Below, piece after piece: positions 4,701 to 62,240 of a stretch of 64,000 bases of DNA (the first letter of the stretch is position 1; each line of letters begins with the position of its first letter). The DNA comes from Bathymodiolus brooksi (taxonomy: Eukaryota > Mollusca > Bivalvia > Mytilida > Modiolidae). Under the pieces are notes generated by a model, which saw nothing but the letters and a program-made list of their open reading frames with translations, was not told where the DNA came from and made no database searches. The stretch spans positions 53,292,203-53,356,202 of the forward strand of contig OY804586.1 of assembly GCA_963680875.1 (NCBI GenBank), given 5' to 3'. Position numbers and translations under genes: made by a program.

Positions 4701-6605
4701 CCATTTTCAAATTTCTGTTTCAGTGTTTGAATATAGAACAAATAGTCCTGGGTAAAAATCATAGAAAAACTAAAGACACAGAGAGAACTATTGATATTTT
4801 AATGGCGTAAGTATTATTTAAGTTGTTATTGTTCAACACGTACAATAATATTTTTCTTAATTTATGTAAGAGGCCTTGTCCACATTCAGATTGTAGTTGG
4901 ATTTGTATCTACATACCTATACAATCAGTGCCTATCGCCACCAAACTGAAGTTTGGAGTTTAATTCCTGCCATGGAATGGGATTAGCTCTCATGGTAAAA
5001 ATATTCCAAAAATTAGGAGTTTGATTACTGCCATGACATGGGGTTAGCTCTCATGGTAAACATTTTCCAAACATTGGGAATTTGTTTCCTGTCGTGGCAT
5101 GGAGTTAGCACTCATGGTAAACATTGTCCAAACATTGTGAGTTTGTTTCCTGTCGTGGCATGGGGTTAGTTGTCATGGTAAAAAGTGTGCAAACGTTAGG
5201 AGTTTGTTTCCTGCTGTGGCATGGGGTTAGTTGTCATGGTTAAAAAATTTCCAGACGTTGGGAATTTGTTTCCTGCTGTGACATGGGGTTAGCTGTCATG
5301 GTAAAAAAATTTCCAACAGGTTTGGATACAGGAAAAATGGAAAAAGCCGGAGACAACAGAACCATTCAAATAAATTTAATCTGGACGATAGGTTAGATCA
5401 ATTTATAGAGCCTAGTATATATAAAATATACTTATAGTATAACTACTCATGCAAATCAAAAATAAATTGTGAGTAACACAAAATGTTAGCACCTGAGTAA
5501 ATTATCATGGTTGATCGGTCATGGGTGATTTATTTATTATCTTAGGAATGCATCAGTTGTTATCCTGTTTATTACATAGGTTGTACGCTTTTGTTTGCAT
5601 GATTAAAATTTTTCAAAAAAGGACCTTGTGTTTCATTGTCGCACACTGAATGATATATTTTACTGGGACGTTGTTGCTAATGTGATGTCATACAGTTATA
5701 AATAGGGATGGTCGTGATCGTATGGTAGTTGGATTTATAACTACCTATGGTATCAGTGTCTATCACCGCTAACGTTGTGAATTCGAACCACCCTCCAGCA
5801 AGGTGTAATTGATACAACTTTGTGTGATAAAGTTTGTCAGTGACTTGTGGCAGGTTGGTGGTTTTCTCCGGATACTCTGGTTTCCTCCACCAATAAAACT
5901 GACAATATAACTGAAATATTGTTGAAAGTGGCATTACACATCTTAACCCTACAGTTATAAATAGACGTTGTTATTTCATTAGGTGAAACATCCGCTTTTC
6001 TTTCTCTGGAAAATCTCAGTATTTCACATAATTTTATATAATAATTAAATTTATTCAGATTGAAAATTTCTAAAGGTAAAATAATAGAAAATAGCAACTG
6101 CATTGGTATCGTAATGATAATCATGCTCGTCTAGAGTACAGTAGTTTGTGCCTTGGTCAGATCAAACCAAAGCCTTTGAAAATTGGTATGTGTTGCTTCT
6201 CCGTTAGGCATGCAGCATTATGGAGTAATAGTGGTTGGCTTGGAATCAGGATAGTGTGTCCAATTGGGGTGACATGTCTATCCACAGACTGTTGGTTCAG
6301 TGAGCCAGCACTATAAAAATCCAACTTATCATGTTTGTCTAGTACAATGCGAACATCATCATCTATTAATTTGAAACGTAACTTGTTCTCGTTATGATAT
6401 AGATGAAAAATTACTCATTTGACATTAAACAACAATTATTTTACTCACTCAGAAATAACATTTAACAATTTTCTATTGCAGAAGTCCAGGACTGTCAAAT
6501 AGATTTGTATTGAGTAAAGAAGATGAATTAAAGAAAAGGCCAAAGTTTAACACCATGGTTACGACAAAACAAAGTTTAGGAGGATTTAAATCCTCAGGAT
6601 TTTAG
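1488..6605 (+). CDS. TTC23: TTC23-like tetratricopeptide protein, 3' part (four exons)
   Basis: Four coding exons join in phase with consensus GT-AG borders and end in TAG: 1488-1701, 3062-3211, 4724-4806 and 6482-6605, about 190 codons in all. The translation has TPR-type helices ([20 protein letters not shown], then [17 protein letters not shown]) and ends [12 protein letters not shown]. The wording fits the C-terminal half of TTC23/TTC23L, a roughly 450-residue TPR protein of cilia reported with the EvC Hedgehog-signalling zone; that role comes from the family, not from this sequence. Earlier exons lie before base 1. The introns are full of SINEs. Assignment to TTC23 rather than a paralogue such as TTC23L is from memory of the family and is not certain. 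Confidence 0.75.
1777..1925 (-). mobile_element. SINE-2 fragment
   Basis: Reverse copy with TTGTGTTTCACGCCACTTTC, CAACAATATTTCAGTTATATC, TTTATTGGTGGAGGAAAATG and CGGAGAAAACCACCGACCTG. It sits 75 bases downstream of the exon A donor, and the open frame over it is read-through. Confidence 0.85.
2728..3048 (+). mobile_element. SINE-1, nearly full length, with tRNA-like head
   Basis: The head carries a pol III A box (GGTGTAATGGTTAGCATGC, 2734-2752) and a B box (GGGTTCGAGC, about 2778-2787). The body has TAAGGAGTAAGATCAAATAC, CTGGTTGGCTC, CTAGCACTATA and ACAAAGCAGACATCATCATC, and the tail is GATATAGCTTAAATATTATTC … GGCGTTAAACAACAATC … ACTCACTCAC. It lies in the TTC23-like intron just before the next exon's acceptor. 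The head is too degenerate and the body too SINE-like for a real tRNA gene. Confidence 0.9.
3062..3211 (+). CDS. TTC23: TTC23-like exon B
   Basis: The acceptor TTTGTATTTGTAG ends at 3061; the donor GTAAGT starts at 3212. The exon is 150 bp, phase 0 at both ends, and reads [20 protein letters not shown] … [18 protein letters not shown]. The last helix pair is a clear TPR half ([17 protein letters not shown]). Confidence 0.85.
3289..3785 (+). mobile_element. SINE-1 interrupted by a small foldback element
   Basis: The tRNA-like head (GTTGTGGTGTAATGGATAGC, then CGTTTCGATCC) is separated from the body (GTCAGGTTAAACCAAGTG onward) by the foldback element at 3360-3498. The body has the TGGTTGACTTGG box, TGACATCATCATCTC, the GATATAGCTGAAAA-like tail and AATAATTCACTCACTC. 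Confidence 0.8.
3360..3498 (+). mobile_element. Short inverted-repeat (MITE-like) insert in SINE-1
   Basis: Terminal inverted repeats GTTATAAAAC / GTTTTATAAAC enclose a second inner inverted pair, TTGTACTCGTATTCG … ACTGCCAATC against GATTTGGCAGT … GAGTACGAAG. The insert lies inside the SINE right after its B box, so it is younger than the SINE. No ORF. Confidence 0.7.
3875..3980. repeat. 52-bp direct duplication
   Basis: AAATCGTTACTCCTCAC(C/T)ACAC … CATAGACATGAC(T/C)GGTCAC occurs twice with a 52-bp period, starting at 3875 and 3927. Confidence 0.9.
4180..4393 (+). mobile_element. SINE-2 copy
   Basis: Forward copy: the B-box-like GTGAGTTCGAATCCCAG, TGTACTCGATACAAC, AAGTTTGTCAGTGATTTGCG, GGTGGTTTTCTCTGAG, then GAAATATTGTTGCAAGTG and CATTAAACACC at the tail. 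It lies in the intron between TTC23-like exons B and C. Confidence 0.85.
4724..4806 (+). CDS. TTC23: TTC23-like exon C
   Basis: The acceptor TTCTGTTTCAG ends at 4723; the donor GTAAGT starts at 4807. It enters in phase 0 and leaves after two bases of a codon. It reads [20 protein letters not shown] … ILMA, including the G-x-x-H-x-K-T pattern common in kinesin-light-chain-type TPR proteins. Its short length is supported by the phase match to both neighbours. Confidence 0.85.
4957..5320. repeat. 61-bp tandem array, 6 copies
   Basis: The unit GAGTTTG(A/T)TTCCTGC … TGGCATGGGGTTAGCTGTCA TGGTAAAAA … CCAAAC starts at about 4957, 5017, 5078, 5139, 5200 and 5262. Copies differ by single bases and 1-2 base indels. 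It lies in the TTC23-like intron between exons C and D. Confidence 0.93.
5705..5946 (+). mobile_element. SINE-2, nearly full length
   Basis: Forward copy with the head GATGGTCGTGATCGTATGG TAGTTGGATTTATAAC, the B-box-like GTGAATTCGAACC, GATACAACTTTGTGTGATAA, GTCAGTGACTTGTGGCAGG, TTCTCCGGATACTCTGG, TTTCCTCCACCAATAAAAC and the tail GAAATATTGTTGAAAGTGGC. It is the best copy here for defining the family's 5' end. Confidence 0.88.
6098..6450 (+). mobile_element. SINE-1 copy
   Basis: A degenerate A box (GCATTGGTATCGTAATGATAA), the AGATCAAACCAAAG motif, GCTTCTCCGTTAGGCATGC, TGGTTGGCTTGGAATCAGG, GACATGTCTATCC, CCAGCACTATA, and the tail GATATAGATGAAAAATTACTC … CATTAAACAACAATTATTT … ACTCACTC. It lies 30 bases before the last TTC23-like exon. 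Confidence 0.85.
6482..6605 (+). CDS. TTC23: TTC23-like terminal coding exon D
   Basis: The acceptor TTTTCTATTGCAG ends at 6481. The first base completes the codon left open by exon C (GC+A = Ala); the frame reads [20 protein letters not shown] … GGFKSSGF and stops at TAG 6603-6605. This Ser/Lys-rich tail after the TPRs fits a C-terminus. The 3'UTR follows. Confidence 0.85.
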
Positions 6606-27609: not shown

Positions 27610-28743
27610 TTATTGTAATGGATTCTTGGGCAATCCCCGAACGGCTCCCCCTCCCCCTTTTCGCAGTGTTAGGTCCGTTTCTTCATTGTTGTCTGTATTT
27701 TGTCTCTCACTCTCCAGAAGCTTCGTTCTCTTAATATGCAATTTGAACATTAATCTCCTTGATAGACTTTCGAGTCTGGCTACGCTGGCTGAGTTTTTCT
27801 TGGTAGGTTTCACGTTGATTGTATTGTCCATTAGCAGTTGTAGTTGGTCAACTTCGCTCAAGTTAAAATTTTCATTATTTTGGAACTCATTTTGCCATAT
27901 AGCGTTGATCTCGGACAGTAAAGCTACTCTCTCCGACAGTAGTTTTTCACATTGGAGAATGAAGTGCAGTACATTCTCTTCAGCTGCTCCGCATAGTAGG
28001 CATGTTGGGTCAGTTTCATTTCTGTAGTACTTAATGCGTTTTGTTTGCAGCACGTATGTCCCGGTGACGAGTCTTAATTTTACTGGAATTCTACTGATGT
28101 CTAATGATGAGTAGCATCTGTGCTTCAAAATAAGATGTATTTTGCACTTGCTCGGGTTGTGGTTACTAAGATATTGCAGCCCTTTGTAGAGTTGTGCTAG
28201 AGTTGTTAGCTGGGTACACCAGTGTTCATTCACTCTTGATTTCACCAACGAGATCCATCGTGATTTTTTGATAGGATTGTCCAAATAGTTGTACGCCTCT
28301 TTCAGGTCGTATTTTCGTAGTATTTTGTTGACACATATAAACCAGCTGTTACTAGATTCCTCCTTCACGGTTAGTTGTCTTCTTGCAAGCTTTTTCTCAG
28401 TGTTTTTTTCGCCCTGATGACAGACGTTATTGAAGAATGTGACGGCTTTTATATGAATTGGTGCTTCTATTGGTAGAATTCCAGTTAGTATAGAAACGAC
28501 TGGGTCCGGACAGCTCATCGGTAATGACAGGATATGTTTTAGTATCCTTTTCTGGAAGAATTCTAGTTGTTCAAGAGGTTTTGAGGACGGTAATAATAGC
28601 TCCATACCGTAAAGCAATACTGGTGTTATGTAGGTTTTGTAGATGTGTAGTAGTGACTCGGGATCCAGGCCGTTGTGTCCATGAAATCCACATCCGAATA
28701 GACTGTATGCACTAAGTCTTGCTTTAGTTATACATATGTATTT
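27610..28743 (-). pseudogene. Non-LTR retrotransposon, post-RT C-terminal region
   Basis: The frame is open from about 28743 (no start codon; TKARLSAYSLFGCGFHGHNG, LDPESLLHIYKTYITPVLLY) to 27610. It contains GMELLLPSS, the CCHC-like CLLCGAAEENVLHFILQC and a basic end. This is the region after the RT domain in a LINE family common in bivalves and cnidarians. RT and endonuclease are absent upstream, so the copy is 5'-truncated, although this part keeps more than 370 open codons. Confidence 0.85.
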
Positions 28744-31975: not shown

Positions 31976-32394
31976 GGTCAGGCGGGGGCATCATTTGTGT
32001 CTTACAGACACACTTCATTTTTAAAAAATCACTCCTAACAAAACAACTTTGTCCATAATTATCAAGTGCGGGGGCATACTTCTTTTCTAGTTTATGTTCT
32101 GTCTGCAGGCAGACATGACGCTCCACTCTGACACGTTAACCGGTGCTTGCTAACTGCCGAAGCAGCTGATATCAAGTTTATAGTCGTTGGTGTGACCTGT
32201 CTGGGGTTCGTAAGAAGATAATATTGACACAAATATTTACATTAAGTTGAAGTGGTCTGACTCCACAAAGATCAGATAGTCTCTTATGTTAAGTGTAGAT
32301 CTATCATTACTACATTAATATGACAAAAACAGGTCAAATTCAATATTAACAAGTTCAGTTGTATGTAATGCATTCTTCTACATATTTTCCCGTT
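31976..32394. other. No gene recognised
   Basis: Includes the second half of the duplicated GGGCGGGGGCATCATTTGTG TCTTACAGA block near 31980 (first copy at 31802). Otherwise nothing recognised. Confidence 0.4.
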
Positions 32395-32622
32395 GTTTTG
32401 TTAACAGGTAGATATGGCACATGTTTATTCCCATTGTTTTTTTAGCAGGTAGATATGACACATGTTTATTCCCGTTGGTTTTTTTACAGGTAGATATGAC
32501 ACATGTTTATTCCCATTGGTTTTTTAACAGGTAGATATGACACATGTTTATCATTCCCATTGTTTTTTTTAACAGGTAGATATGACACATGTTTATTCCC
32601 ATTGTTTTTTTAACAGGTAGAT

Positions 32623-33065
32623 CATCGTCGGTAACCCACCGTTGATTCCGATACGTTCCTCTCTCTCCATCACCCGTTGGTCAAATCGCTTGTAAACATT
32701 CGTACTCATGAATAATTCATAAGTCTTCGCATTACAAACTTCAAATGCGATTCAACCAATCAAATCGTTCCTTTCATAATGAGTTTGGTTAAAAGTTAAA
32801 AATGTCGGACCTGTTGCAAAAATTTGGAGTGAAAGAATTGAGGGACTTTCAACAAGAATCTGTAGACAATTTGCTTGAGGGAAAGGATGTTTATTTGTCA
32901 GATTTTTACCTCCGATACCAAAGAGTTTCACTTTCATAAACGTGATTTTGATTGGTTAATTCGAAACTTTGAATATTCATGAGTACGAATGTTTACAAGC
33001 GATTTGACCCACGGGTGATGGAGAGAGAGGAACGTATCGGAATCAACCGTGGGTTACCGACGATG
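32623..33065. mobile_element. 443-bp TIR element with 9-bp target duplication and captured coding start
   Basis: Inverted ends of about 92 bp (CATCGTCGGTAACCCAC … ATTCGTACTCATGAATA) differ at only a few bases. CAGGTAGAT, a word of the host array, is duplicated exactly at 32614-32622 and 33066-33074. Long TIRs with a 9-bp duplication fit Mutator-like elements; so does the short captured reading frame (Pack-MULE style). No transposase. Insertion into a tandem array makes the event easy to read. Confidence 0.88.
32802..32939 (+). pseudogene. RecQ-like helicase N-terminal fragment inside the TIR element
   Basis: The 45-codon frame starts MSDLLQKFGVKELRDFQQES and continues VDNLLEGKDVYLS, then unrelated DFYLRYQRVSLS and a stop. 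F-G-x-K-x-L-R-x-F-Q-x-E … L-L-x-G-K-D-V is the start of a RecQ-type helicase core; the Walker A motif that should follow VYLS is missing. Thus the piece ends just before the ATP-binding loop. Most likely a captured 5' exon or a deletion derivative of a larger helicase-carrying element; no helicase activity is possible. Confidence 0.65.
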
Positions 33066-33264
33066 CAGGTAGATATGACACATGTTTATTCCCATTGTTT
33101 TTTTAACAGGTAGATATGACACATGTTTATTCCCATTGTTTTGTTAACAGGTAGATATGACACATGTTTATTCCCATTGGTTTTTTTAACAGGTAGATAT
33201 GACACATGTTTATTCCCATTGTTTTTTTAACAGGTAGATATGACACATGTTTATTCCCATTTTC

Positions 33265-47063: not shown

Positions 47064-48360
47064 CTAGTATTTTTCAAAACCCAAGTTGTTGTTCTTTATG
47101 GCTATATATTGTTCAAGTGAATAGTAATTTTTAATTCGATACTTCAATTTTATGATATTTGGAATTTTTTCTTTTAGTTTACATTTATATATATAATTTT
47201 TAGCTATAAGGATCAGCAGGTTAAGAGTTAAACTTTCTTCTTTAAATCCATGCAAAAATTGTTCTTTGTGAAATTCAATATTGTGAAAATAGTGTTTAAG
47301 ACAGTCATAGAAAGCTCTCAGGAAAGGAAATATCAAAGGACAATTAAAAAATAAATGTTCAACCATTTCATCTTCAACATTACAAAAGGAGCACAATTTT
47401 GTGTCTTTAATATGAATTTTAAATAAAAAGGTATTAGTAGGTATAACTCTATGTAAAAACTTATACTGAAAATTGATCAGATATGTATCCCTACAACACT
47501 TTTTAAGAATTCGAAAATATATAGACCAGTCTGCAATGTCAATCCCAAGTATTTCTTCCCATTTCAAAAATTTTTGAATGGGAAGATGAGTTAATGTCTT
47601 CAGTAAAGTAATATATACAAACTTTAAACTTTTTGTATTTATTAGTCTGTCTAAAAAGTCATCTTTTGGATGAAAATTTTCTGTATTGATATTATCAATG
47701 TTATCCTTTTAACACTTTAATATCAGTAGGAATGTTTGAGATTAATGTGTAATATCGAATGAAGTTGTTACTTTTAATTAATGTTTTAATCTTTTCAAAA
47801 GTCCAGAAATTTTTTGTAACAGTATCCATGATATGATTTAAGCTTGTTACACCTGCATTTCCCCATCTCATATTAAAAAGGGAAATCATCAATTGATACA
47901 AAGTTAAGTAGATCAAGAGATAAACACTCCTTTATATTCAATTTTACAAGTGGCTTTGCTAAATACAAGCTATAAAAGACATCTTTCCAAAATGTAAGGA
48001 AAAAATTCTTTCACCCCCATAATATTTTATATTCGTTGCCATGATTTTTTGCCAGCCACCTTTCAAATTGGAAAAGAATCTTTTTATCCAGCTTATTTTG
48101 AGATAGGCATTGAACTGTTGTAAATGTATCATTTTTAACCCTCCATCTTCAAAATCAGCTATGAGTGTATTTCGTTTGATTTTTTTCTGGTTTTTCCATC
48201 CCATATAAAATTAAAAAATATTTTATTTAGATCATTAAACAGTGATTGTTTTAAATTTGGCAGTGAGGTAAGTAAATGAATAAGTTTTGGAAGTGCAAGT
48301 GTTTTTATCACGGTTACCTTCCCAAGAAGGGTGAGCTTTCTATGTTGCCAGCTTTTTAAT
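47064..48360 (-). pseudogene. L1-type ORF2, C-terminal part
   Basis: Pieces in shifted frames: GWKNQKKIKRNTLIADFEDG GLKMIHLQQFNAYLKISWIK (48204-47959); MISLFNMRWGNAGVTSLNHI (47916-47701); WEEILGIDIADWSIYFRILK … CSFCNVEDEMVEHLFFNCPL (47567-47064), a CCHC-like box of L1 ORF2 ends. Linking segments are broken by stops and shifts. Confidence 0.88.
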
Positions 48361-48365
48361 ATTTT

Positions 48366-49541
48366 TTAATATATTCCAAGTAGTTTGAAATTGGATACAG
48401 ACCAGTTCAATTTGAAATCTGGACAAAGAATTTGATTGGAATACCTCTTATTTCCCACCCACACTACCCTTGTTTTAGAAGTATTAATTTTCAGACCTGA
48501 AGCTTTAAAATAAAAGTTTTCAAAACAAATCAGGGTCTCCCTAAGTGATGTCTCACAACCATCAAGTACAAGGAATGTATCATCTGCATATTGACTAATA
48601 AGTGATTCAGTATCATTCACCAATGCTCCTTTTATTTTGGGATTTGATTTAATTTGTAAGGAAAGCAACTCAACACCAATAATAAATAAATAAGGAGATA
48701 GCGAATCGCCTTGACAACAGCCTCCTTCCAGATTGAAAAAGTTTGATATATGTCCATTATTTATCATACAACTTTTAGAGTCTACATAAAAAGTTTCAAA
48801 CCATTTGCAAATAGAAGGACCAAAATTAAAACTATTTAAAGCTTTCTGTAAAAATTTCCATTCAATAGAATCAAAAACTTTTTCGAAATCGATTAATAAT
48901 AATAAACCATCCATATCATTTTCTTCTAAATAGTGCATTAAGTCATAGAGAAAACGAGTATTTTCACCCATGAATCTGTCTTTTATAAAACCCTTTTGAG
49001 TATCACTAATAATACCACCTAAAACTTGTTTAAATCTATTTGCAATTGCTGCAGAAGCTATTTTTAAATCTGTATTTAGTAAACTGATTGGATGCCAGTT
49101 GCTCATATATCACCTATCTTTACTCTCCTTAGGAATACAAGTAATAACTCCTTGAGTCTGAAATTGAGAGAAATGGCCTGTTTCATAGCCAAAATATAAT
49201 GACCGAAAAACAAGAGCAACAATATCGTTCCAAAAGAATTTATAGAAATCTACTGTGAAACCATTTGACCCAGGGCTTTTTCCATTTTTCATTAATTTAA
49301 GAGATTCACCCCATTCCTCGAATGATAAATTCCCCTCCAAAGAGTTTTTTTGTTCATCACTTAATTTGACATCATGCTGGAAGAAAAATTCATTATCTAC
49401 ACATAAATGATTGAATGAATACAATTTCCTGTAATATTGTTCCTGTTCAAATAGAATTTTTGATTGTTCTGAAATATGATTACCTTTTTCATTGATAAGT
49501 TCAGAAATGGTTTTGTTGATAAGAGGACTTTTTTTCTAATT
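48366..49541 (-). pseudogene. L1-type ORF2, reverse-transcriptase domain
   Basis: Reads SPLINKTISELINEKGNHIS, then LKLMKNGKSPGSNGFTVDFY KFFW, a stop and shift at 49110, NWHPISLLNTDLKIASAAIA, GFIKDRFMGENTRFLYDLM, LLIDFEKVFDSIEWKFL (motif A), GGCCQGDSLSPYLFIIGVEL (motif B) and SQYADDTFLVLDG (motif C, catalytic YADD kept). The pattern is L1/Tx1. The stop between GVITCIPKESKDR and NWHPISLLN breaks the frame. Confidence 0.92.
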
Positions 49542-50633
49542 TACAAGTGTGGACACAGAAATGTGCTGTCCAAAAGGCAAGTGTGGATGTCAATATTTCA
49601 TATTATTAACTTGAGACATATTTCATATTATTAACTTTTAAAAAAAAAAATTCATGGACACAGGGTCCGGGATTTTTTTTAATAAAAAAACTAATCCTGG
49701 ATTATTATTTTTGCTTAAAATCCGGTCCTGTGTTTTTATTTCAAATTTTCATCATAGCCCCCCCCTCCCCCCTCGGATACAAAATTGTATCATTAATAAT
49801 AAATTAATAAATAATAAATTCAGATTTTCTATTTAAAATAAATCTCATTTACAAAACCACTGATATTTGTTCAATTTTTAACGCTGATTTAAGCTTTAGT
49901 CGCAACAAATTTTTATTTTTCTCTTTAAACTGTCGAAAACATAGCATTTATTTAACTGTAATATTCACAAATAAAATTCCCCCCCTTTTTTCCCTTTTTT
50001 CTTGTTTAAATCAATGATTAACAATATTCCAGAATCAAACAAATGAATAAATATAACAGATTTCTTTTACATACATCTTTTTACCATGCAGAGTCAGTGT
50101 GTTTTAAATCGGTCATCCAATCAGGACGCTCATTATTCTTGTCCAAGATAAAAATACATCGCTAAAGTAAATTTACCTGTGGTTTCAGAGTAGAAGATTT
50201 TTAGAAATCTAACATAAAATTTCCCCACTTCAACTCGTAAATTTACATAGAAATCGGAGATATTTCGTCATAAAACTTCACACATGGTTTTGTCTATCAT
50301 ATTTCTTGAAGACAAACAAAGTTATATTGCATTTATCAATATTTTATGAGTATCAACAGTTTTTTTCAACACCGTATCTGTTTCTCGATACAGCCGCAAC
50401 TTCATCTCGTAAATTTACATAGAAATCGTAGATATTTCGTCATAAAACTTCACACATGGTTTTGTCTATCATATTTCTTGAAGACAAACAAAAAAATTTA
50501 TTGCATTTATCAATATTTTATGAGTATCAACAGTTTTTTCAATACCGTATCTGTTTCTCGATACAGCTGCCCGATTACAGTGACCCGTGACCCAGATTAT
50601 CAGGTTCCAGCAGTTTTTTCTTAATACTGTCGT
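49542..50633. repeat. 1.1-kb insert that splits the L1 ORF2
   Basis: The endonuclease frame ends EYFC at 50634 and coding resumes as LEKKSPLIN at about 49541, just what joins in an uninterrupted L1. TTTA lies at both borders and may be a short target duplication. The insert has no recognised ORF or TIR but includes a 172-bp tandem duplication. Confidence 0.75.
50234..50577. repeat. 172-bp tandem duplication
   Basis: CTCGTAAATTTACATAGAAA TCG … CTTCACACATGGTTTTGTCT ATC … CAACACCGTATCTGTTTCTC GATACAGC occurs twice, starting 50234 and 50406. The copies differ by a few bases. It is inside the insert in the L1. Confidence 0.93.
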
Positions 50634-51803
50634 TTAACAAAAATATTCAGAGCATCTTTCCCCATTCTCATGCCAATTGGCCCGAGATCGAAGAAGTAAA
50701 CCCTCTACTATATCCTGCCTCCGATTTTCTAATTCCCCCTTTTTCTGATTCAAAGATGCCTGAATAAACTCAGTAGGATTCAAATTCATTTGATTTTCTA
50801 AAATTTGTATGTCATTCTCAAGTTTTAATGTTTTTCCTTTTTCATCTCGAGATTTTCTTATACTGTAGGTTATGGAAACACTTCTGATTTTCATTTTCAA
50901 TATTTCAAAAAACACCTGATCATTACATAATAATTCAACATGAAGAAAATCATCAATATTTCCACCTGAGTAGTATTCAGATAATGTATCTCTAATGCAT
51001 GTTTTAACTATATCAATATAATTTGAGTCCCTCAATAATTGGGAGTTAAATTTCCAGTAGCCCTTTCCCCGATTAGCAGGAGAGGCAGAAAAATTAAAAA
51101 CAATGGCAGAGTGGCCAGTTCTATAGCCTGGAATTATTTTGGTATACTCCATGAGAGAAAAAATATCTTCTGAGACGAGAAAGTAATCAATTCTGCTTTG
51201 TTTAGTAGGAGAGGTTTGACGCCATGTGAACTTTTTATCCACAGGATAACAAGTTCGCCAAGGATCTAATAATTCAAATGTTTCTTTAAGTTCCTCTATT
51301 TTCTTATGCGCATTTTGGTTTCTGTCATGTATTACATTATAAGTATCATCAGATTTATTCTGTACTACATTCCAGTCACCACAAAATAAAAAGCTAGTAT
51401 TAGCAAATCCTGCAGACTTTTGCAGTATTTCAGTAAACAATTCAGGTTTGTCAGTGTTGTAACCATATAAACAAACTAATGTTAAACGTTGTTCATAAAC
51501 AGTTAAATCTAAAATAATATAGCGACCATTCTGATCTAATATAGAATCATTAACCTTAAAATCAAAACCATTTCTGAACATAACACTTACTCCGACACTT
51601 TTACTATCACCATGACTAAAAAAGCATTTACTACCCCATTCGTCCTCCCATTTGACTGCTACATCTTTGGTACTGTGTGTCTCCTGAAAACAAACTATAG
51701 AGATTCTCCTTGCCTTGACCCAATTAAATACATCTGACCTCTTTTTAGTATTTGAAAAAAGACCCGTTACATTCATAGACAAAATTTGTATATGGTTATT
51801 CAT
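50634..51803 (-). pseudogene. L1-type ORF2, endonuclease domain and linker (389 aa open)
   Basis: APE-like endonuclease: MNVTGLFSNTKKR, VCFQETHS (metal-binding Glu), LVCLYGYNTD, FLFCGDWNVV, FTWRQTSPTKQSRIDYFLVS and GYRTGHSAIVF. In the last box most L1 endonucleases have SDH; here it is TGH, so a key Asp appears lost. The frame stays open to EYFC, where the 1.1-kb insert begins. The ATG at 51803 is the usual ORF2 start. Confidence 0.92.
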
Positions 51804-51862
51804 TATGTTATATTAACATGTAGATATACCAATAAGAGCAAGTTTAGTAACTTTAGTAAACA

Positions 51863-58974: not shown

Positions 58975-60410
58975 GATTTTAATTAATATTTTTGTTTGTT
59001 TTGGATCTTTTGTAAATTTAATATAATTTTGAAAACAAATCTCATTTCTGGTGACTTTTTTTTAAAGTAATAGTTTTGGCGAAGTGCAAAATTGTTTAAA
59101 ATTAATATTTTTATTTGTTTCGAATCTGTTGTAAGTTTAATATAATTTTGAAAACAAATCTCATTTCTGGTGACTTTTTTTTTAAAAGTAATAGTTTTGG
59201 CGAATTGTAAAATTGTTTAAAATTAATATTTTTGTTTGTTTTGGGTTTTTTGTAAATTTAATATAATTTTGAAAACAAATCTCATTTCTGGTGACTTTTT
59301 TTTAAAAGTAATAGTTTTGGCGAAGTGCAAAATTGTTTAAAATTAATATTTTTATTTGTTTCGAATCTGTTGTAAGTTTAATATAATTTTGAAAACAAAT
59401 CTCATTTCTGGTGACTTTTTTTTTAAAAGTAATAGTTTTGGCGAATTGTTAAATTGTTTAAAATTAATATTTTTGTTTGTTTTGGGTTTTTTGTAAATTT
59501 AATATAATTTTGAAAACAAATCTCATTTCTGGTGACTTTTTTTTAAAGTAATAGTTTTGGCGAAGTGCAAAATTGTTTAAAATTAATATTTTTATTTGTT
59601 TCGAATCTGTTGTAAGTTTAATATAATTTTGAAAACAAATCTCATTTCTGGTGACTTTTTTTTTAAAAGTAATAGTTTTGGCGAATTGTAAAATTGTTTA
59701 AAATTAATATTTTTGTTTGTTTTGGGTTTTTTGTAAATTTAATATAATTTTGAAAACAAATCTCATTTTTGGTGACTTTTTTTTAAAGTAATAGTTTTGG
59801 CGAAGTGCAAAATTGTTTAAAATTAATATTTTTATTTGTTTCGAATCTGTTGTAAGTTTAATATAATTTTGAAAACAAATCTCATTTCTGGTGACTTTTT
59901 TTTTAAAAGTAATAGTTTTGGCGAATTGTAAAATTGTTTAAAATTAATATTTTTGTTTGTTTTGGGTTTTTTGTAAATTTAATATAATTTTGAAAACAAA
60001 TCTCATTTCTGGTGACTTTTTTTTTAAAAGTAATAGTTTTGGCGAATTGTAAAATTGTTTAAAATTAATATTTTTGTTTGTTTTGGGTTTTTTGTAAATT
60101 TAATATAATTTTGAAAACAAATCTCATTTCTGGTGACTTTTTTTAAAGTAATAGTTTTGGCAAAGTGCAAAAGTGTTTAAAATTAATATTTTTATTTGTT
60201 TCGAATCTGTTGTAAGTTTAATATAATTTTGAAAACAAATCTCATTTCTGGTGACTTTTTTTTTAAAAGTAATAGTTTTGGCGAATTGTAAAATTGTTTA
60301 AAATTAATATTTTTGTGTGTTTTGGGTTTTTTGTAAATTTAATATAATTTTGAAAACAAATCTCATTTCTGGTGACTAATTTTAAAGTAAATTTTTTATG
60401 AAGATTTGCT
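58975..60410. repeat. 120-bp satellite in A/B alternating order, 12 units
   Basis: CTCATTTCTGGTGACT recurs at 59041, 59161, 59281 … 60361 in 120-base steps. Two unit types alternate: type A with GTGCAAAATTG … TATTTGTTTCGAATCTGTTG TAAG, type B with ATTGTAAAATTG … TGTTTGTTTTGGGTTTTTTG TAAA. The order from the left is B A B A B A B A B B A B, with one break (B-B at 60001/60121). The repeat of the dimer as a unit marks a young higher-order array. Confidence 0.95.
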
Positions 60411-60594
60411 ATTAATGGCAATTTTAAAATAATTTTTAACAAAAAAGTTTTAATTTTTTTTGAATATCCATAAAAAATGTATTTTAAGATACACTCACGC
60501 AGACACCACAACCAATTGAAGATGGCATCAAAGCCACTGAAACTACAGTCAACAATACTTTTGGTAGGTTTAAAATTTAAGGGGCTTTAATAGG

Positions 60595-62240
60595 GACAAG
60601 AAGAGTTTGAAGATACCAAAGGGTAATCAGAATCCGTAAATTGAAGGACAGAATACACAATGACCAAAAGAAAAACAAAAACAATGATCTACAAAACACT
60701 ACAGAAAACGAACGATCAAGAACCACGAACCCCATAAAATCCGGGGTTGAGCTCAGATGCTCTAGAAGGGTAAGAAGAGTTTGGAGATACCAAAGGGATA
60801 ATCAGAATCCATAAATCGAAGAACAGACTACACAATGACCAAAGAAAAAAATACAAAAGGACAACGATCTACAAAACATGTATTTAAAACTAAAGATCGA
60901 GTAACATGAACCCTACTAAAAACCGGCTTTAAAAAGTTGAGGTAACTCTGTCGTGTATAAGTAGTTTAATAGTAATCAGAATCCATAAATCGAAAAACAG
61001 ACAACACAACGAACAAAGAAAAAAGTACAAAAGGACAAACAACGATCTACAAAACATACATATGAAACTAAAGATCGAGTAACATGAACCCTACTAAAAA
61101 CCGGCTTTAAAAAGTTGAGGTAACTCTGTCGTGCACAAGTAGTATAATAGTAATCAGAATCCGTAAATCGAAGAACAGACGACACAACGACCAAAGAAAA
61201 AAGTACAAAAGGCCGAACAACGATCTACAAAACGTACATATAAAACTAAAGATCGAGTAACAAGAACCCCACTAAAAACTGGCTTTAAAAAGTTGAGGTA
61301 ACTCTGTCGTGCACAAGTAGTTTAATAGTAATCAGAATCCGTAAATCTAAGAACAGACAACACAACGACCAAAGAAAAAAGTACAAAAGGACAAACAACG
61401 ATCTACAAAACATACATATAAAACTAAAGATCGAGTAACAAGAACCCCTGTTGTCATCAATTTTTCATTCATTTAATTTCCTTAAAAACTGCTTGTTTGT
61501 AAGATTTACTGTTGCTACCAAGCAGTTAGAAGAAAGAAGCATACAGCAGACGAATACCAAATCTTTATCCATGGCATACATGAGCTCAGATGCTCTGAAA
61601 GGGTAAGAAGAGTTTGGAGATACCAAAGGGGTAATCAGAATCCATAAATCGAAGAACAGACTACACAATGACCAAAGAAAAAAACACAAAAGGACAACGA
61701 TCTACAAAACATGTATTTAAAACTAAAGATCGAGTAACATGAACCCTACTAAAAACCGGCTTTAAAAAGTTGAGGTAACTCTGTCGTGCACAAGTACTTT
61801 AATAGTAATCAGAATCCGTAAATCGAAAAACAAGACAACACAACGAACAAAGAAAAAAGTACAAAAGGACAAACAACGATCTACAAAACATACATATGAA
61901 ACTAAAGATCGAGTAACATGAACCCTACTAAAAACCGGCTTTAAAAAGTTGAGGTAACTCTGTCATGCACAAGTAGTATAATAGTAATCAGAATCCGTAA
62001 ATCGAAGAACAGACGACACAACGACCAAAGAAAAAAGTACAAAAGGCCGAACAACGATCTACAAAACGTACATATAAAACTAAAGATCGAGTAACAAGAA
62101 CCCCTGTTGTCATCAATTTTTCATTCATTTAATTTCCTTAAAAACTGCTTGTTTGCAAGATTTACTGTTGCTACCAAGCAGTTAGAAGAAAGAAGCATAC
62201 AGCAGACGAATACCAAATCTTTATCCATGGCATACATGAG
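60595..62240 (-). repeat. Nested tandem copies of the mussel-like repeat
   Basis: Units of about 177 bp (ATCAGAATCCGTAAATCGAA GAACAGAC … ACAACGATCTACAAAAC … CTAAAGATCGAGTAACATGA ACCCTACTAAAAACCGGCTT TAAAAAGTTGAGG) start near 60624, 60797, 60973, 61150, 61328, then 61630, 61806 and 61985. A larger block of about 656 bp is duplicated: ACCCCTGTTGTCATCAATTT TTCATTC … GGCATACATGAG occurs at 61443 and 62099. The strand is opposite to locus 1 (325-690). Confidence 0.92.

Follow-up and report, generated by a model that had tools for sequence, protein, structure and literature searches.

A short inverted-repeat element in Bathymodiolus brooksi is probably an internally deleted relative of transposons that carry a RecQ-type helicase

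A 443-bp element in a 64,000-nucleotide stretch of Bathymodiolus brooksi DNA (C15:53292203-53356202, hereafter the window) is very probably a non-autonomous MITE, formed by internal deletion of a terminal inverted repeat (TIR) DNA transposon in which a RecQ-type helicase is the left-hand gene. We favor internal deletion because derivatives with different junctions exist alongside helicase-carrying relatives of 14.7 and 18.7 kb that are bounded by target-site duplications (TSDs) of 9-10 bp. The initial annotation of the window had named a deletion derivative of a RecQ-encoding TIR element as one of two possible origins, and these junctions and long elements (F3 and F2long, below) support that option.

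Results

The window element and its insertion site

The element occupies positions 32623-33065 of the window and is flanked on both sides by an exact 9-bp duplication, CAGGTAGAT. Its features, in window positions, are as follows:

32387 to 32622, no strand: left part of a 41-bp minisatellite, the insertion target
32614 to 32622, no strand: left 9-bp TSD, CAGGTAGAT (9-bp TSDs are found at other copies too)
32623 to 32714, plus strand: left TIR, starting CATCGTCGGTAACCCAC, from comparison of the arms
32802 to 32939, plus strand: 45-codon frame to the stop, its first 33 residues read as the start of a RecQ-type helicase
32901 to 32902, plus strand: approximate internal-deletion junction, from comparison by eye of the L036 copy with the window copy
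32974 to 33065, minus strand: right TIR, from comparison of the arms
33066 to 33074, no strand: right 9-bp TSD, CAGGTAGAT
33066 to 33261, no strand: right part of the 41-bp minisatellite

The TIR arms are 92 nt each and 98% complementary, with 2 mismatches (positions 18 and 56) when compared without gaps. Joining the two flanks of the element regains an intact 41-bp array unit. The length of the element, its arms, its exact duplication and its place within a tandem array were all as first annotated. A 17-base TIR string, allowed up to 3 mismatches, occurred at two places in the window, both of them the TIRs of the element, against a chance mean of 0.05. At 443 bp, multicopy, and with TIRs and 9-bp TSDs around an interior that holds no full transposase gene, the element has the characters of a MITE or non-autonomous TIR transposon. 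Because TIRs and TSDs are present, we rejected its identification as a Helitron.

The frame, MSDLLQKFGVKELRDFQQESVDNLLEGKDVYLSDFYLRYQRVSLS followed by a stop, opens at 32802 and encodes a 45-aa peptide, which on its own matched nothing in PDB, Pfam or NCBIfam.

Elsewhere in the window, LINE-type frames with endonuclease, reverse transcriptase and zf-RVT lie on the minus strand at 47067-51812. Another minus-strand LINE-type frame, at 27610-28740, matches zf-RVT weakly, short of that profile's cut-off, and long tandem arrays with units of ~120 bp and ~178 bp occupy 58981-62103.

A homogeneous family of short copies

Searching the genome (2,002,413,471 bases in 136 contigs) placed the window element in a homogeneous MITE family, F1, with at least 40 copies; the count is a lower bound because 40 were scored among 214 first-look candidates. 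A TIR unique to this locus would have spoken against the initial annotation, and the TIR is instead multicopy. F1 copies are separated from a 20-copy consensus by 3-12 alignment positions, a low divergence such as a recent burst from a single master would leave, and the short frame is disrupted in some of them.

Both copies of the window's TSD were present in 11 of the 40 scored F1 copies, the window copy included. The other 29 scored copies lack this duplication, and of the 20 that we fetched, 11 had an exact 9-bp TSD, six had one mismatch and two had two mismatches. The sole copy with no TSD among the 20, L012, has an altered end. The duplications of F1 are 9 bp long and varied in sequence, and the TTAA duplication of Kolobok elements is absent.

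Flanking sequence is common to the window and seven further loci (L003, L005-L010), which share parts of the ~31.0-34.7 kb region at ~90-99% identity. The array-type copies are best read as a single insertion that was carried along by a larger dispersed repeat. This dispersed repeat, at ~31.0-34.7 kb of the window and seen at seven other loci compared, includes the minisatellite and its flanks. Four array-type copies, on C2, C10, C16 and C17, have a second F1 copy ~47-67 kb away, a spacing that may point to a far larger unit of duplication. At L010 (C2:31975982-31979442) two F1 copies, spaced 575 bp apart, sit in one array and both carry the window's TSD, as if the element had been duplicated along with array units.

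Derivatives that retain more of a helicase

A protein search with the window peptide returned 30 proteins at E values up to 10, three of which were above 0.1. Many of these have the same N-terminus and depart from it at different points. The window-type frame departs from the helicase sequence after VYLS, before Walker A as first annotated, and longer derivatives retain Walker A. In P0014 and P0023 the helicase sequence extends past Walker A before it joins the element's own inner 3' portion, in P0009 and P0021 the frame reads into the 3' TIR, and P0020 reaches what we take to be the next helicase motif past Walker A.

Profile searches with the longer frames matched the RecQ family TIGR00614 through Walker A (P0020, E 1.1e-12; P0014, E 3.4e-10; P0023, E 6.1e-9), all far under the whole-protein cut-off because these frames are fragments. 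P0013 reached the RecQ profile at E 0.06 at best. P0020 also matched PDB chain 1oyw, a RecQ-type DNA helicase, with an E value of 5.4e-8. The RecQ relationship first suggested for the peptide is borne out by its longer derivatives and not by the window peptide alone, which matches no profile; judged from those derivatives at the level of sequence, the 45-aa frame is the start of a RecQ-type helicase.

One such derivative, L036, measures 436 bp, has the F1 TIRs and lies between two identical 9-bp duplications (GATTTAGCT); its frame is the version that retains Walker A, although part of the helicase N-terminus is missing. Comparison by eye showed that the window copy equals L036 up to the G at 32901, just after VYLS, and diverges beyond it.

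With a padded P0020 query we retrieved 25 RecQ-type proteins of 251-800 aa (36-51% identity, including prokaryotic sources). A padded query for proteins of 83-262 aa gave 59, including bivalve relatives and longer F1-like frames. The contigs of P0056 and P0060 also contain helicase frames that resemble F1 and are longer. The nearest helicases with a named source were from Saccostrea, Argopecten and Crassostrea. In viral contigs the P0020 query gave 5 pattern matches, none of them confirmed, and two TIR strings and one coding string gave 0 matches each. A 19-base TIR string had 2 matches in prokaryote genome contigs, which we took as chance.

Long relatives with the helicase as left-hand gene

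The initial annotation had asked for a long copy with a RecQ-like frame between the same TIRs and for a non-mobile parental gene. Among the 150 of 431 candidates scored, we found no long copy in the assembly with a RecQ-like frame between F1 (CATCGTCGG) TIRs and no non-mobile parental cellular gene for the helicase piece. Within the same 150 of 431, no full-span match came nearer to the F1 helicase than 49% identity, and that match itself lay inside a TIR element. A protein search of the genome with P0060 gave at least 29 matches, again with 150 of 431 candidates scored.

A second family of short elements, F2, is distinct from F1 and was found at eight of these loci (L032-L034, L037, L043, L044, L049 and L050). 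Because the flanks of L043 and L044 are 99.6% identical, the eight loci may stand for seven insertions. In 6/8 of the short elements we recovered TIRs of 69-72 bp, which start with CATCTTCGCTAGCC or a close variant. By eye, exact 9-bp TSDs flank L033, L037 and L049, and TSDs matching at 8/9 positions flank L032, L034, L043/L044 and L050 when end changes are allowed for. The least damaged copy, L032, has 144 helicase codons from the ATG to DEAHTVIQW, and the other copies are broken. The F2 short copies stop at the exon-1 boundary.

One long F2 element, F2long, spans 18,744 bp on C5. The alignment of its TIRs covers 73 columns and has 2 mismatches; the end base also differs. The flanks of the element, GTGTACCAC and GTGTACCCC, give a TSD matching at 8/9 positions. 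Helicase pieces, read from the left end, extend to late motifs, and a convergent exon matches DUF6589 (E 9.5e-7; 28.3 bits, cut-off 27), so that the C-terminal gene is recognised through a single exon. The copy appears damaged, the first helicase splice site included, and reverse-transcriptase-like frames inside it were taken as a nested LINE insertion. At their starts, the TIRs of F1 and F2long resemble each other with a score of 15, which 0 of 5000 shuffles reached; the best shuffle scored 14. F2long also contains, at ~5174-5243 of the L061 reverse complement, a miniature element of ~68 bp that runs from TIR to TIR; its ends are those of F2, and it appears to be flanked by a 9-bp duplication (8/9, by eye).

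The third family, F3, shows its left end, TAACTCGAATAATTCAG, at nine loci, and its copies are ~94-99.5% identical to one another. The copy on C17 is 14,670 bp long with the TSD GTTCTTGTT; the helicase runs on the plus strand from the left end, and DUF6589 exons lie convergently on the minus strand. Two convergent frames match DUF6589 (E 2.5e-15 and 2.1e-7), and GTAAGT...ACAG follows immediately 3' of DEAHCITEW in the helicase. In four of six further copies the right end was at the predicted place, and in two it was not where expected. By eye, these four have 9-bp TSDs on C16 (ATAGCATTG) and C18 (AATTTTTGT) and 10-bp TSDs on C19 (CTATGTACGT) and C10 (GAAGGGTCCC). All four contain both DUF6589 exons at 97-100% amino-acid identity, so every F3 copy for which we located both ends (5/5) contains them. 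On C16 the DUF6589 exons and the right-most frame are broken, and the copy on C19 is 8 residues short.

The TIRs of F3 match over 17 bp only. They showed no kinship with those of F1 (3652 of 5000 shuffles were as good) and no likeness to those of F2long. Three loci, L045, L058 and L051, represent more helicase families near F3, with 66-68% amino-acid identity in exon 1 and F3-like left ends.

The helicase as a standing gene of the elements

In F1, F2 and F3 alike, the helicase sequence is the first after the left end, despite their different TIRs. A FastTree tree, small and built from short sequences, placed the helicases of F1-F3 in one clade (support 0.98) with 11 relatives from databases, of which three or more come from named bivalves; one copy from the host genome (L056) and four RecQ proteins from databases, presumed bacterial, fell outside it. 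Between families, dN/dS was 0.09 (L041 vs L045) and 0.20 (L032 vs L031), with three other pairs saturated, and among close copies it was 0.41-1.13, on few changes. This pattern fits a helicase that would be under selection in active masters and would decay in their copies.

The other origin offered in the initial annotation was a Pack-MULE-like capture, in which a Mutator-type element took up exon 1 of a cellular RecQ gene and the exon was idle in transposition. A 9-bp TSD and long TIRs are compatible with MULEs, which have duplications of 8-11 bp (PMC6446971). The exon-1 boundary is also the end of the F2 short copies, and an F1 parent was not found among the 150 of 431 candidates scored. However, in long F2 and F3 elements the helicase runs past exon 1 through later motifs with the intron in place, its position is constant across families with different TIRs, transposon and bivalve helicases form one clade (0.98), the between-family dN/dS values are 0.09 and 0.20, and Pfam gave 0 MULE matches in the 9 frames of F3 and F2long scanned. 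We therefore regard capture as highly improbable and retain internal deletion of a helicase-encoding transposon as the origin of the window element. The label "Mutator-like" is carried by TSD and TIR length, and Mutator membership is at most tentative, with no MULE match in those 9 frames and DUF6589 as the second gene there.

DUF6589 as a candidate transposase

Helicase and DUF6589 sequences occur together between TIRs with 9-10-bp duplications in F2long and in F3 (all five copies whose two ends were located). For F1, the observed likenesses are limited to the helicase start, the TIR likeness to F2long and the 9-bp TSD. In F3 the convergent frames open immediately inward of the right end and may together form a single long spliced gene. 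While this anatomy is observed, the catalytic role is inferred: the DUF6589 protein is most likely the transposase.

It may instead be that the helicase is a standing element gene, that DUF6589 is accessory and that the transposase is another, unrecognised gene of the element, which we think unlikely. Six further frames had no convincing Pfam match (four on the right side of F3, with a 102-aa F3 frame outside the scan, and two in F2long), 14.7 kb has space for more genes, and the DUF6589 piece had 0 matches among the solved structures of the PDB. Against this are the DUF6589 exons in F2long and in every F3 copy with both ends located, and convergent frames that begin just inside the right end and are possibly a single gene.

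We give a little more weight, still tentatively, to the possibility that F1-F3 diverged within a known DDE superfamily (Kolobok, MuDR, hAT or P), with a 9-10-bp duplication and DUF6589 as the transposase. RecQ helicases are carried by KolobokH, and that of Kolobok-1_CCri is on the complementary strand, as here (PMC9587614). ExxH also stands at matching places in the DUF6589 sequences of F3 and F2long, a weak likeness noted by eye. But the TTAA duplications described for Kolobok in the same source were not seen here, and Pfam matched no transposase family of Kolobok, MuDR, hAT or P in the 9 frames of F3 and F2long.

Discussion

RecQ helicases in DNA transposons are already known; the combination of RecQ with DUF6589 was not found in the literature searched. 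KolobokH, reported from fungi only, and Kolobok-1_CCri, from a rhodophyte, are TIR DNA transposons with a RecQ helicase (PMC9587614); the target duplication is TTAA, 4 bp. The complementary-strand RecQ of Kolobok-1_CCri resembles the arrangement in F2long and F3, whereas the duplications here are 9-10 bp and DUF6589 takes the place of a recognised Kolobok transposase. MULE/MuDR elements have 8-11-bp duplications, often long TIRs and frequent extra genes (PMC6446971). The duplications of F1 and F2 (9 bp) and F3 (9-10 bp) are MULE-like in length, but a match to MULE transposase is absent from the 9 frames scanned in F3 and F2long. The words "helicase" and "RecQ" have 0 occurrences in that paper. 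At the level of titles and abstract openings, the literature searched showed no comparable TIR element from an animal that carries RecQ, and the name DUF6589 (PF20231) was not found in the literature searched.

There is a fair chance that F1-F3 are a new superfamily. In its full form, with F1, F2 and F3 as branches of an undescribed animal DNA transposon superfamily that combines a RecQ-type helicase, a convergent DUF6589 transposase, varied TIRs and 9-10-bp duplications, we hold the proposal at about even odds.

Under the internal-deletion reading, the F1 parent would have carried the same two genes, helicase and DUF6589. As transposase, the DUF6589 protein would bind the TIRs, cut targets with a 9-bp stagger and mobilise the MITEs in trans. 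The helicase could aid strand processing or gap repair; it would be dispensable in cis, and derivatives would for that reason be able to lose it.

These results tie DUF6589 to long transposons with clean target duplications, an association that gives this domain a testable function. They also make a RecQ-type helicase a standing component of TIR transposons in an animal genome, which raises the question of the role of a repair helicase in DNA transposition. Database RecQ-like proteins from Saccostrea (P0059), Argopecten (P0063) and Crassostrea (P0086), labelled helicase or uncharacterised by their sources, fall in the same clade as the F1-F3 helicases (0.98), and several frames among P0057-P0066 and P0086 stop at the same DEAHTVxxW point. 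Judging from these sequences, P0057-P0066 and P0086 may be transposon genes, and transposons may account for RecQ-like annotations and apparent expansions of gene families in bivalves. If the superfamily proposal is true, DUF6589 would be a new transposase family and many bivalve "RecQ-like" genes would be transposon genes.
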